From Phaeobacter sp. QD34_24 (GTDB taxonomy: Bacteria; Pseudomonadota; Alphaproteobacteria; Rhodobacterales; Rhodobacteraceae): a stretch of 64,000 nt of DNA. A program made the position numbers and the translations under genes. Every line of letters starts with the position of its first letter. Within the stretch, counting starts at the first letter, position 1. The notes beneath the pieces are model-generated. The model worked only from the letters and a program-made list of their open reading frames with translations, was not told the DNA's origin and did not search any database. Positions 3,729 to 11,826 of this stretch are shown here, one piece after another. Location of the stretch: assembly GCF_028890115.1 (NCBI RefSeq), contig NZ_JARCJD010000011.1:1-64000 (forward strand), in the 5' to 3' direction.

Positions 3729-4577
3729 CTACAGTTCGGTGCGCAGATGCCAAAGCTCAGGAAACAGCTCCACATCGAGCATCCGTTTGAGATAGCTGAC
3801 GCCGCCGGTGCCGCCGGTGCCGCGCTTAAAGCCGATCACTCGTTCCACGGTGGTGACGTGGTTGAAGCGCCAGCGACGGAAGTAATCCTCGAAATCCACC
3901 AGCTTTTCAGCCAGTTCATAAAGTTCCCAATGGGTTTCCGGCGCTTGGTAGACCTTGGTCCAGGCATCCATCACCGCATCGCGGGGCTGATAGGGCTCAG
4001 ACACATCGCGGCTGATCACCTCATCCGGCAGCGGCACCACGTTGGCCAGCAGGCGCAGGGCCACATCATAGAGCGAAGGCTGCGTCAGTTCCGCCTCCAA
4101 CTGTGCGGTGATGGCCGGATCATGGGCGTGGGGGCGCATCATGGCCTTGTTCCGGTTGCCCAGGATGAATTCGATCAGCCGGTACTGATGTGACTGAAAG
4201 CCCGAGCTTTGCCCCAGCGAGTCCCGGAAGTGCGTGTAATCGGACGGGGTCATTGTGCGCAGCACGTCCCAGGCGGAGTTGAGCTGCTCGAAGATCCGCG
4301 CCACGCGGGCCAGCATCTTGAAGGCCGGGCGGGAGTTGCCCGCCAGCAGGCAATCGCGCGCCGCGTTCAGCTCGTGCACCGCCAGGCGCATCCACAATTC
4401 GCTGGTCTGGTGCTGGATGATGAAGAGCATCTCGTCATGGGCATCGCTCAGCGGCTTTTGCGCGGTCAGGAGGCTGTCGAGCTTCAGGTAGTCGCCATAG
4501 GACATACGCCCGTCAAAGGACATTTCGGCGCCGTCCTCGGCTGGGTCAAACGGGGTGGAGATGGGGCATTTGGTCAT
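3729..4577 (-). CDS. kynA: Tryptophan 2,3-dioxygenase
   Basis: This heme enzyme opens the indole ring of tryptophan with O2 to give N-formylkynurenine, the first step of the kynurenine pathway. The 282-residue product shows the family's N-terminal block ([13 protein letters not shown], then [11 protein letters not shown] with the active-site His near 56) and the [10 protein letters not shown] segment near 238 that supplies the axial heme histidine. The ATG at 4577 is preceded by AGGAAAG and gives the normal family length; upstream in-frame ATGs would add about 39 unconserved residues. kynU lies 147 bp upstream in the same orientation. No arylformamidase gene (kynB), needed between the two reactions, is in this window. 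Confidence 0.95.
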
Positions 4578-4724
4578 CGGATCTTTCCTGTTCCTAGGGG
4601 TATCATATATCAGGGAAGGGAAAGCGTCCTCCGGTTTAGACAGCCGCATTGTGCCAGGCGGCGCCACAGCGCCACCCAGCCCGCGGGGCTGCACAGGGGA
4701 ATATGACGGGCGTGATGGCTCATC

Positions 4725-5918
4725 TCAGGTGACAGCGGCGCGCTGCTTGTATTCGGGGCGGTCCCAAAGGGCATTGTCCATCACGTCTTTCAGGATGGCG
4801 ACCGCGCCGCGCACGTCGTCTTCGTCGATGAACAGCGGCGTGAAGCCAAAGCGCATGATGTCGGGGGCGCGGAAATCGCCGATCACGCCGCGCGCGATCA
4901 GCGCCTGCATCGCGGCATAGCCTTCGTGGAAGCGGAAGGAGACCTGGCTGCCGCGCTGGCTGCCATCGCGGGGCGAGGCCAGTTCCAGCGCAGGGCAGGC
5001 GGCTTCGACCTCCGAAATGAACAGATCACACAGGGCAATCGACTTGGCGCGCAGGGCTTGCATGTCGACCCCGTCCCAGATGTCCATCGAGGCTTCGAGC
5101 GACGTGAGCTGGATCACAGGCGGGGTGCCGACGCGCATCCGCTCGATCCCGCGCCCGGGACGATAATCCAGATCAAAGGCAAAGGGGGCCTCGTGCCCTA
5201 GCCAGCCGGACAGGGCGGGGCGGGCCACTTCGGCGTGGCGCGGGGCGACATAGATGAAGGCTGGGCCGCCGGGACCACTGTTGAGATACTTGTAGGTGCA
5301 GCCCACGGCGAAATCCGCCTTGCAGCCTGCCAGATCCACCGGCAGGGCGCCGGCCGAATGGGCCAGATCCCAGACCGTGAGTGCGCCCATGTCATGGGCC
5401 TTGGCGGTGAGCGCCTTCATGTCGTGCTTGCGCCCGGTGCGGTAATCCACCTCGGTCAGCATCAGCACCGCGATCTCCTCGGTGATATTGTCTTCCACCG
5501 CCTTGGGGTCCACGACACGCAGCTCATAGTCTTCGCCAAGGGATTTCAGCAGCCCTTGCACGATGTAAAGGTCCGAGGGGAAGTTGCCATTGTCCGACAG
5601 AACCACCTTGCGGCCCTTGTTCATCTCCAGCGCCGAGGCGACCGCCTGATAGACCTTGATCGACAGGGTGTCGCCCATGATCACATGGTCCGCTTCAGCG
5701 CCGATCAGCCGCGCGATGCGGTTTCCGACAGCGGTGGATTTCTGCATCCAGCCGGCCTTGTTCCAGCCGGTGATCAGCATCTTGCCCCATTCCTCGGTCA
5801 TCATGGCAGACACGCGGGCCGTGGCGGATTTGGGCAGCGGGCCCAAGGAGTTGCCATCGAGATAGATCACCCCTTCGGGCAGGTCGAACAGGGCCTTGGT
5901 GGCGGCAAAATCGGTCAT
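4725..5918 (-). CDS. kynU: Kynureninase
   Basis: A PLP-dependent hydrolase of 397 residues that cleaves kynurenine to anthranilate and alanine. The start MTDFAATKALFDLPEG leads into the family segment YLDGNSLGPLP, and the PLP lysine sits in TYKYLNSGPGG near residue 209. The ATG at 5918 has a GAGG 7-10 nt upstream; an ORF reaching to 6164 is open but unconserved. kynA lies downstream after 147 bp that contains a small hairpin (4677-4691), so the two may be one unit or partly separate. Anthranilate could be recycled to tryptophan or degraded elsewhere in the genome. Confidence 0.95.
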   Translation of the reverse strand: MTDFAATKALFDLPEGVIYLDGNSLGPLPKSATARVSAMMTEEWGKMLITGWNKAGWMQKSTAVGNRIARLIGAEADHVIMGDTLSIKVYQAVASALEMNKGRKVVLSDNGNFPSDLYIVQGLLKSLGEDYELRVVDPKAVEDNITEEIAVLMLTEVDYRTGRKHDMKALTAKAHDMGALTVWDLAHSAGALPVDLAGCKADFAVGCTYKYLNSGPGGPAFIYVAPRHAEVARPALSGWLGHEAPFAFDLDYRPGRGIERMRVGTPPVIQLTSLEASMDIWDGVDMQALRAKSIALCDLFISEVEAACPALELASPRDGSQRGSQVSFRFHEGYAAMQALIARGVIGDFRAPDIMRFGFTPLFIDEDDVRGAVAILKDVMDNALWDRPEYKQRAAVT

Positions 5919-5981
5919 CGGAGCCTCATGAGCGGGAGCAGGATGGATGTCGCGGATCGTCTGGTTTCGTAGATTTCGCAT

Positions 5982-6002
5982 TTTGTATCCAATATTCAAA
6001 AT
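5982..6002. promoter_or_regulatory. Imperfect inverted repeat upstream of kynU, candidate operator
   Basis: TTTTGTAT and ATTCAAAA form 8-bp arms (7 of 8 paired) around 5 bp, about 65 bp upstream of the kynU start. It is an AT-rich island in GC-rich DNA. Lrp-type KynR regulators control kyn genes in other proteobacteria, and GntR regulators like such sites, but no regulator gene is adjacent. Confidence 0.4.
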
Positions 6003-6046
6003 CCTGTCCAGACTTGTTTCGGGGCGCGCGCGGCATGGAAACGAAA

Positions 6047-6071
6047 ACGCCGCCAGATCCTGGCGGCGTTC
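6047..6071 (-). terminator. Intrinsic terminator of the SDR gene
   Basis: An 11-bp perfect stem (6047-6057 with 6061-6071, 3-nt loop) lies 23 bp past the SDR stop. On the minus strand the stem ends in TT and runs on as TTCGTTT. Confidence 0.7.
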
Positions 6072-6094
6072 GCTGGAAACCAAAGTGGGACGGT

Positions 6095-6865
6095 TCAGAT
6101 CTGTCCGCCGGCAATCTGGATGGTCTGGCCATTGATCGATTGGGATCCGGGGCCCACCAGCCACAGGGTGGCAGCAGAGACCTCATCGGGTTCGATCAGG
6201 CGCTGGTGGCGGTTGGCATGGGTCATCATCTTCAACGCCTCGTCCTCGCTGACGCCGGCGCGCTCCGAGATCGAGGTGATGTTGCGCTCCACGATCGGCG
6301 TGTCCACATAGCCGGGGCAGATCGCGTTGAAGGTGAAGGGCGTGCCCATGTAATCCTCGCTCAGCGCGCGGGTCAGGCCGATCATCCCGTGTTTGCTGGC
6401 CGAATAGCAGGCGCCGCCCTTGAGACCGCGCAGCCCCGCGATAGAGGAGACGGTGATCACCCGGCCCCAATCGGTGGTGCGCATGGATTTCAGGCTTTCG
6501 CGGATTGTCAGGAAGGCGCCGTCCAGATTGGTGGCCATCATGTTGCGCCAGAAGTCGAGCGTGGTCTTGTGCAGCGACTTGCCTTCGGCAATGCCGGCAT
6601 TGGCGACGCAGATCTGGATCGGGCCGCGGGCATCGACAGCGGCCTGGATCTTTGTCACGATGTCATCCTCATCGCGCACATCCATGGCCATCGGGTGCAG
6701 CCCCTTGGTGGCGACCTCTTCCAGAACCTCCTGGCGGCGCCCGGTGATGGTCACTTCGGCGCCCTGCTCGGCCAGGGCGCGGGCAATGGCCAGGCCAATG
6801 CCGGTGCCGCCGCCGGTGACCAGCGCGTGTTTGCCTTTCAGCGTTTCAGAACTTTGTGATGTCAT
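6095..6865 (-). CDS. SDR-family NAD(P)-dependent oxidoreductase
   Basis: A classical short-chain dehydrogenase/reductase of 256 residues. The Rossmann motif TGGGTGIG is at 17-24, NAG at 89-91, and the catalytic set Asn113, Ser141, Tyr154 and Lys158 is complete. Similarity in style is to 3-hydroxybutyrate and 3-hydroxyacyl-CoA dehydrogenases (ICPGYVDTPIVE after the active site), but the substrate cannot be assigned. It lies upstream of kynU in the same orientation, yet a strong terminator separates them, so a role in the kynurenine pathway is doubtful. Confidence 0.85.
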   Translation of the reverse strand: MTSQSSETLKGKHALVTGGGTGIGLAIARALAEQGAEVTITGRRQEVLEEVATKGLHPMAMDVRDEDDIVTKIQAAVDARGPIQICVANAGIAEGKSLHKTTLDFWRNMMATNLDGAFLTIRESLKSMRTTDWGRVITVSSIAGLRGLKGGACYSASKHGMIGLTRALSEDYMGTPFTFNAICPGYVDTPIVERNITSISERAGVSEDEALKMMTHANRHQRLIEPDEVSAATLWLVGPGSQSINGQTIQIAGGQI

Positions 6866-7037
6866 GTCTCGTTTCCTCCCTGATTTGCCGCCAGCCTACC
6901 GACCGGCCGGGGCAGGGCAAGAAAGCCGTTCCGTCACATCGGGCGTCAGATGGTGTTTGACGCAGCTTTTTCCGGCTGCCCATTTACAATCATATTCAAA
7001 GGTGTGAATTATTGCGCAGCTTTTCCGGGAGGACACC

Positions 7038-7991
7038 ATGAAGCCATTGTTCACCAGCCTGCTGGCCGCCACCTTTGCTGCGGGCGCCGCATTTGCCAGC
7101 GAAGATATCGCCGACCAATACCCGCAGTCCGAGCTATATTCCAAGCCGGTCGAAGTGATCCCGCATGTGTTTTCGGCGATCGGGGCCACCGCGCCGCCGA
7201 CCTATGAAAACTCGGGCCACAACAACAACCTGTCCTTTGTGGTCACGGACGAGGGTGTCGTGGTGGTCAATGGCGGGGCTTCGGCGCGGCTGGCGGCTGC
7301 CTTGCATGATGAGATCAAGGCCATCACCGATCAGCCGGTGGTGCTGGTGATCAACGAGAACGGCCAGGGCCATGCCATGCTCGGAAATTCCTACTGGGTG
7401 GATCAGGGGGTTGATATCCTTGCCCATGTGGACGCGATCGAGGCCTTCACGGAAGAGGCCGATTTCATCCTGCAGGGTATGCAGCGCTATAACCGGGACA
7501 AGGCGGAAGGCACCCGGATCGTGACGCCGAATCTCACATTCGAGGACAGCTACAGCCGCACCCTCGGCGGGGTCGAGTTCGAGGTGATGCACATGGGACC
7601 GGCCCATGATCCGGGCGACACCCAGGTCTGGCTGCCGCAGTGGAACCTGCTGATCGCCGGCGATATCGCCTTTCATGAACGCATGCTGCCGATCTTCGAA
7701 GGCATCTGCACCTCCTGCTGGCTGGAGACCTGGGAGGAAAAGATGGAGCCCTTGAACCCGACCTATGTGATCCCGGGCCATGGCCATCCCACCAATCTCG
7801 CCCAGGTGCGGCGTTACACCTATGACTACCTCAGCGACCTGCGCGAAAAGATCGGCGCCCATATCGAGGAGGGCGGTGACTTGGCGGGCGCCTATTACGT
7901 GGATCAGGAGCGTTGGAAGGGGCTGGACACCTTCGAAGAGCTGGCGACCAAGAATGCGGGCCGTGTCTTTGAGGAAATGGAGTGGGAATAG
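7038..7991 (+). CDS. Exported MBL-fold protein lacking the canonical HxHxDH motif
   Basis: The 317-residue product has a clear Sec signal peptide (about 1-20, cleavage after AFA) and a metallo-beta-lactamase fold resembling SoxH/quinoprotein-relay hydrolases. Later ligand positions are kept: His190 in GPAHDPGD, Asp209 in AGDI and His248 in PGHGHPT. The first metal motif is not: where the family has H-x-H-x-D-H before GN, this protein has Asn108, Gln110, His112 and Ala113 (NENGQGHAMLGN). It also has a Cys224-x-x-Cys227 pair. A single metal site, a different metal, or a non-hydrolytic role are possible. GGGAGGA lies 7 nt before the ATG. It is transcribed divergently from the SDR gene. Confidence 0.8.
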   Translation: MKPLFTSLLAATFAAGAAFASEDIADQYPQSELYSKPVEVIPHVFSAIGATAPPTYENSGHNNNLSFVVTDEGVVVVNGGASARLAAALHDEIKAITDQPVVLVINENGQGHAMLGNSYWVDQGVDILAHVDAIEAFTEEADFILQGMQRYNRDKAEGTRIVTPNLTFEDSYSRTLGGVEFEVMHMGPAHDPGDTQVWLPQWNLLIAGDIAFHERMLPIFEGICTSCWLETWEEKMEPLNPTYVIPGHGHPTNLAQVRRYTYDYLSDLREKIGAHIEEGGDLAGAYYVDQERWKGLDTFEELATKNAGRVFEEMEWE

Positions 7992-8215: not shown

Positions 8216-8665
8216 ATGCGTTGGATTGATCTGCCCCCCGTCTGGCTTGTTGCCTGTCTTGTCCTGGCCTGGCTCCAGGCGAGCCATCTGTCCTATGGGC
8301 TGACCTTTGGCGGGCCCTGGGCGGATTTCCTGGGCGGGCTGCTGGTTGGCGGCGGCATCCTCTTGATGCTGCTGGCGGTGGTCGAAATGCGGCGCCAGCG
8401 CACCACGATCATTCCGCATCAGACGCCAAGCCGCCTGGTGCAATCGGGGATCTTCAGCCGCAGCCGCAATCCGATCTACCTGGGCGATGTTCTGGTCCTG
8501 GCCGGGCTGATCCTCCGGTTTGACGCAGTGTTGTCCTTGCCGCTGATCCCGATCTTCGTCTGGATCCTGGAACGACGATTCATCGAACCGGAGGAAAACC
8601 GGATGCGCCGGACCTTCCGACAGGACTGGGCACGCTACGAAGGAAAGGTGCGCCGCTGGGTGTGA
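8216..8665 (+). CDS. Isoprenylcysteine carboxylmethyltransferase/PEMT-like membrane methyltransferase
   Basis: The 149-residue protein has about four hydrophobic segments and the ICMT/phospholipid-methyltransferase C-terminal signature: [14 protein letters not shown] at about 84-97, then a glutamate-rich ERRFIEPEE segment and a [12 protein letters not shown] tail. The family transfers methyl groups from S-adenosylmethionine to lipid or small hydrophobic substrates. Bacterial members of this size mostly have unknown substrates. It stands alone between the MBL-fold gene and pntA; the 224 bp before it contain no other gene. Confidence 0.8.
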
Positions 8666-8712: not shown

Positions 8713-8740
8713 CTTGCGCAAAAATGTTGCGCAATATAAT
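8713..8740 (+). promoter_or_regulatory. Candidate promoter of pntAB with repeated TTGCGCAA
   Basis: A consensus TATAAT (8735-8740) lies 16 bp after CTTGCG (8713-8718). The octamer TTGCGCAA, itself a palindrome, occurs twice here (8714-8721 and 8727-8734), once over the -35 and once against the -10, which suggests an operator as well. Confidence 0.55.
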
Positions 8741-8804
8741 CAAAATATTTGCGATCCGTACCCGGTGCTTTGCTGGCACGGGCAAGACGAGGGGGACCGA
8801 CAAG

Positions 8805-10379
8805 GTGAAGATAGGTACACCAAAAGAAGTAATGAAGGGCGAAGCGCGCGTCGCGATGACGCCGGATTCGGCCAGGCAGCTGCAAAAGCTGGGCTATGAC
8901 TGCGCGATCGAGACTGGCGCGGGTCAATTGGCCGGTTTCAGCGATGCCGCCTATGAAGAGGCAGGAGTCGAGATCATCAAGACCGCTGCCGCCCTGTGGA
9001 AGGCCTGCGACATCGTCGCTAAGGTCCGCATTCCGACCGAGGCAGAGCTGAAGCGGATGACAGCGGGCAAGACGCTGATCTCCTTCTTCAATCCCGGTGC
9101 CAACGAAGAGGGGCTGGAACTGGCTCGCTCCAAGGGTGCCAATGTCATCGCCATGGAAATGGTGCCGCGCATCAGCCGCGCCCAGAAGATGGACGCGCTG
9201 TCCTCGATGGCGAACATTGCGGGCTACCGTGCCGTGATCGAGGCGGGCAACAACTTTGGCCGCTTCTTCACCGGTCAGATCACCGCTGCGGGCAAGGTGC
9301 CCCCGGCCAAGGTTCTGGTCGTGGGTGCAGGTGTTGCCGGTCTGGCCGCCATTGGTGCCTCCACCAGCCTTGGCGCCGTGACCTACGCCTTTGACGTGCG
9401 CCCCGAAGTGGCCGAGCAGGTCGAATCCATGGGCGCCGAGTTCGTCTACCTCGACTTCGAGGAAGAACAGCAGGACGGTGCGGCGACCGGCGGTTACGCT
9501 TCTGTTTCCTCGCCTGAATTCCGCGAAGCCCAGCTGGCGAAGTTCCGTGAACTGGCGCCGGAAGTGGACATCGTCATCACCACCGCGCTGATCCCGAACC
9601 GCGAAGCGCCCAAGCTGTGGCTTGAGGACATGGTTGCGGCGATGAAGCCGGGCTCGGTGATCGTCGACCTTGCGGCCGAAAAGGGCGGCAACGTCGAAGG
9701 CACCGTGATGGACGAGAAGGTCGTGACCGACAACGGGGTCACCATCATCGGCTACACCGACTTCCCCAGCCGGATGGCGGCGCAGTCCTCGACCCTTTAT
9801 GCCACCAACATCCGTCACATGATGACCGACCTGACCCCGGAAAAGGACGGTCAGATCGTGCACAACATGGAAGACGACGTGATCCGCGGTGCAACGGTCA
9901 CCTTCGAGAAGGAAATCACCTTCCCGCCGCCGCCGCCAAAGATCCAGGCCATTGCCGCGCAGAAGAAACCCGATGCGCCGAAAGAGCTGACCCCGGAAGA
10001 GAAGCGCGCGCAGGAAATCGCCGCCTTCAAGGCGCAGACCAAGAGCCAGGTCACCCTGCTGGTGATCGGTGCCGCGCTTCTGCTGGGCGTCGGCCTGGTC
10101 GCACCGGCCAGCTTCATGCAGCATTTCATCGTCTTCGTGCTGGCGGTCTTTGTTGGCTTCCAGGTCATCTGGGGCGTGGCGCACAGCCTGCACACCCCGC
10201 TGATGGCGGTGACCAATGCGATCTCCTCGATCATCATCCTGGGCGCGCTGATGCAGATCGGCTCTGGCTCCTTCCTGGTGATCGTCTTGGCGGCGCTGTC
10301 GGTCTTCATGGCCGGGATCAATATTTTCGGCGGCTTCCTCGTGACACGGCGCATGCTCGCCATGTTCCAGAAATCCTAA
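8805..10379 (+). CDS. pntA: Proton-translocating NAD(P) transhydrogenase subunit alpha
   Basis: With PntB this inner-membrane enzyme couples inward proton flow to hydride transfer from NADH to NADP+. The 524-residue product is the single-chain alpha type: an NAD-binding domain I (about 1-375, with [14 protein letters not shown] in the Rossmann fold), a proline-rich and charged linker, and three to four membrane helices at the end. I chose the GTG at 8805 because GAGGGGG lies 10 nt upstream and the protein then begins with the family's KIGTPKEV. pntB follows 13 bp later. Confidence 0.95.
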
Positions 10380-10392
10380 GGAGTACAGGTAG

Positions 10393-11826
10393 ATGGAATA
10401 CGGATTCACCACGGCGGCCTATGTGGTCGCGGCTGTGCTCTTCATCCTCTCGCTGGGTGGCCTTTCGGGGCAGGAAAGCGCAAAACGCGCGGTCTGGTAC
10501 GGCATTGTCGGCATGGCCATCGCGGTCTTTGCAACCCTGATCGGACCGGGTTCGGGCTTCTGGATCTTGTCGCTGGTGCTGATCGCGGCCGGTGGCCTGA
10601 TCGGCTATCAGCTGGCCAGCAAGGTCGAAATGACCCAGATGCCGGAGCTTGTGGCCGGCATGCACGCGCTGGTCGGTCTGGCGGCGGTCTTCGTGGGCTA
10701 CAACGCCCATTTCGAACTGGGCAATGTCATGGCCATGGACGAGGCCGCGAAAAAGTCGCTTGAAGGCTTTGCCGCGCTTCTGGCCAAGAAAGACGCGGTC
10801 GAGATCAATATCCTGCGCGTCGAAGCCTCGCTGGGTATCTGGATCGGTGCCGTGACCTTCACCGGCTCGGTCATCGCCTATGGCAAGCTATCGGGTCGTG
10901 TGACCTCGGCTGCCACCAAACTGCCGGGCGGTCATCTGCTCAATGCAGGGGCGGCCGGCCTCTCGGTGCTCTGCCTGATCTGGTATCTCAGCTCCGGCGC
11001 CCTGCTGCCGCTGTTGATCCTGACCATTGCTGCGCTGTTCATCGGCTATCACCTGATCATGGGTATCGGCGGCGCCGACATGCCGGTGGTTGTCTCGATG
11101 CTGAACAGCTACTCAGGCTGGGCGGCTGCGGCGATCGGCTTCTCCCTTGGCAACGACCTTCTGATCGTTGTGGGTGCGCTTGTGGGCTCCTCGGGTGCGA
11201 TCCTGTCGTACATCATGTGTAAGGCGATGAACCGCTCCTTCGTCTCGGTGATCCTGGGCGGCTTTGGTGGCGCCACGGGTCCTGCGATGGAGGTCGAGGG
11301 CGAACAGGTTGCGATCGATGCGGATGGCGTTGCCACCGCGCTGGACGAGGCCGACAGCATCATCATCATCCCTGGCTACGGCATGGCGGTTGCACAGGCA
11401 CAGGCCAATGTGGCCGAACTGACCCGCCGTCTGCGCGCCAAGGGCAAGAACGTGCGTTTCGCGATCCACCCGGTTGCGGGTCGTCTGCCGGGCCACATGA
11501 ACGTGCTGCTGGCCGAAGCCAAGGTGCCTTACGATATCGTTCTGGAAATGGACGAGATCAACGAGGACTTCCCGGACACAGATGTGGCCATCGTCATTGG
11601 CTCCAACGACATCGTGAACCCGGCGGCGCAGGAAGACCCCAACAGCCCCATCGCCGGCATGCCGGTTCTGGAATGCTGGAAGGCCAAGCAGGTCTTCGTC
11701 TCCAAGCGCGGTCAGGGCACCGGCTACTCGGGCATCGAGAACCCGCTGTTCTACAAAGAGAACACCCGCATGTTCTACGGCGACGCCAAGAAGTCGCTGG
11801 ACGATCTGCTGACCAAGATCAGCTGA
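10393..11826 (+). CDS. pntB: Proton-translocating NAD(P) transhydrogenase subunit beta
   Basis: The 477-residue beta subunit has eight to nine predicted membrane helices (roughly 5-270) and a cytoplasmic NADP(H)-binding domain III. In domain III the segments [10 protein letters not shown] near 330 and [16 protein letters not shown] near 398-413 are typical. It forms the proton channel with PntA and completes a two-gene operon that ends in a strong terminator 25 bp after the stop. An AAGGAG spanning the pntA stop precedes the ATG. Length and motifs are normal. Confidence 0.96.

Follow-up and report, generated by a model that had tools for sequence, protein, structure and literature searches.

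Knowledge of SoxH, a protein of the Sox thiosulfate-oxidation system, dates back to 2001. In that year Rother et al. reportedly noted two metal-binding motifs together with a low Zn and Cu content in their abstract; they are said to have measured about 0.29 Zn and 0.20 Cu for each SoxH subunit, to have described SoxH as thiosulfate-inducible and to have reconstituted thiosulfate oxidation without SoxFGH. Such low metal occupancy and dispensability speak against an essential zinc hydrolase. Among the enzymes with the metallo-β-lactamase (MBL) fold, the subclass B2 β-lactamases hold one zinc in site 2, as the titles of their structure entries also indicate, and carry Cys221. Their first motif is NxHxDR, according to one study (PMC7785958). 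Another describes soxH as a gene of unknown function (PMC11237559). For the SoxH of Campylobacterota, a putative metallo-hydrolase, release of sulfate from SoxY has been proposed (PMC10045233), a proposal also mentioned in PMC11237559. The quinoprotein-linked forms are assigned maturation or redox roles in a review of the ped cluster (PMC12997753). Our literature search, thin on subscription papers, found no description of an NxQxHA motif, or of the loss of HxHxDH ligands, in Alphaproteobacterial SoxH.

Here we analyse a gene from Phaeobacter sp. QD34_24 that lies at positions 7038..7991 (forward strand) of a 64,000-nucleotide stretch of DNA, which we call the window. The gene starts with ATG and encodes a probably exported MBL-fold protein of 317 amino acids. 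By eye, a probable ribosome-binding site, GGGAGG (7027..7032, forward strand), stands 5 bases before the ATG, and the N terminus is hydrophobic and signal-like, lacks twin arginines and probably forms a signal peptide of residues 1–21 (7038..7100, forward strand). Lactamase_B (26.7 bits) is the sole Pfam match. The top NCBIfam matches, TIGR04559 (140.5 bits, cut-off 280) and TIGR04558 (116.7 bits, cut-off 300), are both named as SoxH-related, and both span the whole domain; the protein is a member of neither family, as the scores lie under the cut-offs and its motif is NxQxHA, not HxHxDH. The NCBIfam scores for the β-lactamase classes are also under their cut-offs, including that for subclass B2 (42.9 bits against 240), and membership of these classes is rejected. 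No relatives were found among viral contigs.

The identity of the protein as SoxH is well supported by sequence comparison with Paracoccus, the source of its closest plasmid matches. Query residues 22–317 (93% of the query) align at 75.3% identity with an ORF of P. pantotrophus DSM 11072 (L108:11938-12891) that lies directly after a 303-aa SoxG-like ORF. The P. pantotrophus ORF shares with the window protein its length of 317 aa, its NGQGHA motif and its CTSC pair; the two differ at the N terminus, which begins with MRR (twin arginines) in P. pantotrophus and with MKP in the window. The lengths of 303 and 317 aa are presumably those of SoxG and SoxH. SoxA, SoxB and SoxC of the cluster that holds these ORFs pass the NCBIfam cut-offs, and the names SoxG, SoxX, SoxY, SoxZ, SoxD, SoxE and SoxF are taken from ORF order and size, not from family scores. 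SoxH homologues also occur in regions with annotated soxABC in Ruegeria SCSIO 43209 and Paracoccus SMMA_5_TC. The window protein is a member of the already known SoxH, and its odd motif is a family trait. The original prediction, made from the window alone, had recognized the oddity but missed the SoxH identity; the motif is not a local peculiarity but common to SoxH relatives.

At the place of HxHxDH, row and profile alignments put the residues N108-G-Q110-G-H112-A113 (7359..7376, forward strand). Downstream, also on the forward strand, His190 (7605..7607), Asp209 (7662..7664) and His248 (7779..7781) take the positions of His196, Asp/Cys221 and His263, and each is present in 100 of 100 rows. 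The residues that the original prediction had named (N108, Q110, H112, A113, H190, D209, C224, C227 and H248) are all found as claimed. Its count of three replaced ligands out of four needs one correction: all four positions differ from HxHxDH, three having turned into poor ligands or non-ligands and the Asp into His. A profile alignment of 101 SoxH rows with 15 canonical rows (T-H-x-H-P-D-H-x-x-G-N) runs through the motif ungapped (probability 99.9, E = 3.5e-37); in standard β-lactamase numbering, H116 therefore corresponds to N108, H118 to Q110, D120 to H112 and H121 to A113. A shifted register, in which the Asp-His of a sister clade described below would equal Asp120-His121, is opposed by the ungapped profile alignments, at the level of sequence only. 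In either register, His112 is predicted to stand at a site-2 position.

The motif is strongly conserved. N108, Q110, H112, H190, D209 and H248 are invariant in all 100 rows with at least 58% identity, window included, and A113 is kept in 99 of them, with Ser in the one other. N108, Q110, G111, H112 and A113 are invariant as well in 80 loci from named genomes and in the window. Rows L001, L129 and L131 were left out of the alignment as duplicates; the duplicate pairs L002/L115 and L003/L116 were retained, and both lie outside the 100 close rows. Because the motif is identical across the 100 rows, we reject decay or sequencing error as its origin. The gene is intact, as had been proposed, and the random substitutions among homologues that would have spoken against a conserved motif are absent.

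To this we add a quick tree of 70 rows (every seventh row at 73% identity or more, and the complete set under 73% but for L002 and L003), computed with the motif columns left out. The 28 NxQxH rows form one group (SH-aLRT 100) and the 11 GxQDH rows a group of their own (SH-aLRT 99); the two groups join at SH-aLRT 94, under the starred level, the 17 HxHxDH rows need three changes, and the tree carries long-branch warnings for several outer rows. N-x-Q-x-H-A defines a single clade, next to which stand a G-x-Q-D-H-R sister clade and canonical HxHxDH relatives; this answers in the affirmative a question that the original prediction had raised. In a wider sample, 12 of 349 genomes match SoxH at E ≤ 1e-40, and the loci whose motif was read, leaving out the cut fragment L171, comprise seven of NxQxH type (the window's included) and six of GxQDH type. 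One genome from another class of the same phylum (G594) holds an N-x-Q-x-H-S SoxH, 50% identical, within 9 kb of soxY-, soxA-, soxB- and soxC-like genes. A separate SoxH-related protein, L130 (G087:C2:479726-480547), has N-x-H-x-D-Y replacing HxHxDH and Gly at the Asp209 position.

An AlphaFold2 model of the window SoxH, built with 81 close sequences, has a mean pLDDT of 84.6 and a pTM of 0.82, with pLDDT 86–91 in the blocks that hold the site residues. The solved folds nearest to the model are 8d2z and 6uxu (Z = 29.8 each), followed by mono- and di-zinc CphA (Z = 24.2). The Burkholderia cenocepacia MBL superfamily protein 8d2z, the best solved match by sequence (E = 2.3e-19) as well as by fold, carries HYHAVR where the window SoxH has NGQGHA. 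The B2 enzymes CphA and Sfh-I share with SoxH the fold (rmsd 2.5–2.7 for CphA) and the Asn at position 116. They differ in combining NxHxDR with Cys221, whereas SoxH combines NxQxHA with Asp209 at the Cys221 place. Against a B2-like reading, 8d2z, with its HxHAVR motif, and 6uxu rank above CphA, and the nearest solved structures are not SoxH.

On balance, and with some reserve, we read SoxH as a periplasmic, one-metal MBL-fold protein of the Sox pathway that has lost site 1 and whose probable activity is to hydrolyse a SoxYZ sulfur adduct. Site 1 (H116/H118/H196) corresponds by position to Asn108, Gln110 and His190, and would be lost, as Asn108 and Gln110 stand at two of its three ligand positions. 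Site 2 would be kept, with His112 (at the Asp120 position), Asp209 and His248 holding one metal, putatively Zn and perhaps Cu or Fe, and Gln110, Asn108 and His190 would line the pocket. The metal-bound water would most likely hydrolyse a sulfonate or polysulfide adduct on the SoxY cysteine or spilled from there, in a side or repair role that the pathway does not strictly require. A one-metal enzyme is favoured because site 1 is without two strong ligands, site 2 has three, and the B2 enzymes offer a precedent; the original prediction had listed a one-metal site including His112 among its options, and the conservation of His112, Asp209 and His248 speaks for that option. The metal number, the ligands, the substrate and the hydrolysis itself we infer from sequence and association.

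The proposed substrate follows from association, of the SoxH clade with Sox genes and of the HxHxDH relatives with SoxYZ-like carriers. These relatives, the quinoprotein relay metallohydrolases, share with SoxH the C terminus -EMEWE/-ELEWE but keep THxHPDH where SoxH has NxQxHA. They adjoin SoxYZ-like carrier genes in three of the three plasmid regions opened, and PQQ dehydrogenases too in two of the three. A SoxY-type carrier would therefore be the shared partner. Beside one such quinoprotein-linked HxHxDH protein and its SoxYZ-like carrier, in Azoarcus, we observed a second MBL protein (L147:7665-8618) with the motif HxLxEF and Ser at the His190 place, which is possibly another MBL protein with lost ligands.

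The same residues can be read differently. Every SoxH row has Asn and Gln at two site-1 ligand positions, and the P. pantotrophus protein reportedly holds substoichiometric metal. Both would suit a former enzyme that now serves as a scaffold or binding protein, with weak metal or none, and attaches to SoxYZ or to a small sulfur compound but catalyses nothing. We consider this fairly unlikely, as none of the 100 rows departs from H112, H190, D209 or H248, which a pure binder would not need.

The sister clade offers a further reading. Its members (for example G000:C6:97320-98153) are 36–41% identical to SoxH and share with it Gln110, His112, His190, Asp209 and His248; they differ in having Gly at 108, Asp at 111 and Arg at 113, and several of their genes adjoin arsenic-type genes, not sox genes. 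SoxH and this arsenic-associated clade might together be a branch of the MBL superfamily with a remodelled single-metal centre (Gln110/His112, His190, Asp209 and His248), whose chemistry, perhaps a redox or transfer reaction acting on protein-bound sulfur, would differ from that of ordinary two-metal hydrolases. We regard this as doubtful.

The sister-clade member just cited is a paralogue in the window's own genome, with the motif G-G-Q-D-H-R and 38% identity to the window SoxH. Immediately downstream of it come genes that Pfam assigns to HTH+LMWPc, GAPDH, MFS and SBF (L115:7246-12401), in an operon of arsenic type whose ArsR-ArsC, GapA, ArsJ and Acr3 are named from gene order. Arsenic-type neighbours are present in 7 of the 11 sister-clade loci with wide flanks and absent in the other 4, and four of the seven come from the window's genus; among further loci with 1.5-kb flanks they occur in one of five (L172, another class). 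One GGQDHR copy (L174, G747:C4:404377-405054) contains an internal TAG stop and is probably a broken gene.

Returning to SoxH, a redox metalloenzyme would use His112, His248 and Asp209 as a 2-His-1-carboxylate set with Fe or Cu, acting on a persulfide. One study (PMC6060420) describes persulfide dioxygenases as MBL-fold enzymes with one iron on two His and one Asp, and gives His57 as an iron ligand of AcPDO. The ligand set of SoxH is of the same type, though it uses another His pair, and the pathway is one of sulfur oxidation. This reading is nonetheless improbable. The first-motif His ligand of the dioxygenase iron gives way to Asn108 and Gln110 in SoxH, His57 probably falling at the N108 place; neither the predicted periplasmic location nor the reported Zn and Cu content points to iron; and the Pfam, NCBIfam and solved-structure sequence matches of the window SoxH include no dioxygenase family.

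The gene neighbourhood might suggest that soxH has left the Sox pathway. In the window it is flanked by a divergent SDR oxidoreductase gene (6095..6865, reverse strand; Pfam adh_short) and genes for tryptophan 2,3-dioxygenase and kynureninase (3729-6083, reverse strand; both above the NCBIfam cut-offs) on one side, and on the other by a PEMT/ICMT-type methyltransferase-like gene (8216..8665, forward strand; Pfam PEMT) and the transhydrogenase genes pntA and pntB (8724..11826, forward strand; Pfam). Similar genes recur across the 80 SoxH loci from named genomes: SDR in 64, PEMT in 72, pntA in 72, pntB in 69, kynureninase-like in 50 and tryptophan 2,3-dioxygenase-like in 30, by a bit-score limit alone, so that some matches may be paralogues. 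No sox genes were found near soxH in these 80 loci, up to 5 kb a side.

Unlike in P. pantotrophus, where soxH follows a SoxG-like ORF within the sox cluster, in the window's genome soxH, the sox cluster and soxG lie apart. The cluster, with soxX-to-soxF-like genes, is on another contig, C54 (L114, G000:C54:22000-41900); it ends after the soxF-like gene, neither soxG nor soxH gives a match in it at E = 1e-10, and a soxG-like gene stands alone on contig C25. In another genome (G010), about 7 kb separate a sox cluster from a block of kynureninase, soxH, PEMT and pntAB genes, a layout that suggests how the soxH block and the sox cluster became parted. Across the family, soxH adjoins soxG in 40 of the 98 genomes that hold SoxH, on a SoxG call that leaves out 30 of 112 genomes with a match as weaker than E = 1e-88. 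Separate soxH genes have also been reported in some Sulfitobacter (PMC11034169). Adjacency to soxG is not essential to SoxH identity.

Across genomes, SoxH co-occurs with SoxB. In 248 genomes of the family, called by match thresholds alone and not by motif, SoxH (E ≤ 1e-90) is present in 98 and SoxB (E ≤ 1e-200) in 154. Of the 98 genomes that hold SoxH, 95 also hold SoxB; of the 150 that lack SoxH, 59 do (Fisher p = 4e-23, with no correction for kinship). Three SoxH genomes (G351, G410 and G426) lack a full SoxB and have partial matches at a looser threshold, which makes 98 of 98 if partial SoxB counts; as this recheck covered SoxH genomes only, the fair comparison is 95/98 against 59/150. In a smaller sample of relatives, SoxB is above the cut-off in all 15 genomes whose SoxH reaches 61% identity or more, against 28 of 61 overall, and it is present in the window's genome. 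SoxH is not needed for Sox, since 59 of the 150 genomes without SoxH hold SoxB.

That a stand-alone soxH no longer serves the Sox pathway but its new neighbours (SDR, tryptophan degradation and transhydrogenase) would agree with the conserved flanking genes and with the lack of a sox gene within up to 5 kb a side in all 80 loci. It is very unlikely, because, of the 54 genomes whose soxH has no soxG next to it and no soxB within 30 kb, 52 hold SoxB at E ≤ 1e-200 (the SoxB position in one, G385, is unlisted), the other two have partial SoxB matches, and the stand-alone motif is the same as that of the sox-linked forms.

The two cysteines, C224-T-S-C227 (7707..7718, forward strand), form an optional pair: of 101 SoxH rows, 88 have the two together and 13 lack them, and neither ever occurs alone. 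The 13 rows keep the motif and have D/A, D/G, Y/D, I/E or H/D at these positions. In the window protein, they are the only cysteines of the mature form. Joint gain or loss, together with this solitary status, fits a disulfide better than a set of ligands, and we take the pair as an optional disulfide that would not bind the metal. A working metal site made of the CxxC pair and His112 is hardly credible, despite the presence of the pair in the window protein and most rows, because the 13 rows without it rule out an essential CxxC site; the suggestion that the cysteines belong to an essential rebuilt site thus finds no support.

If Alphaproteobacterial SoxH has one metal site, with His in place of the catalytic Asp, a search for its activity should fit that site. 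Under the same premise, transfer of annotation between Paracoccus-type SoxH and the HxHxDH quinoprotein relay zinc metallohydrolases may mislead. A remodelled single-metal centre shared with the sister clade, if true, would explain why SoxH has no assigned activity. Since the tie to SoxB is close even in genomes with an unlinked soxH, a sulfur phenotype can be tested directly.
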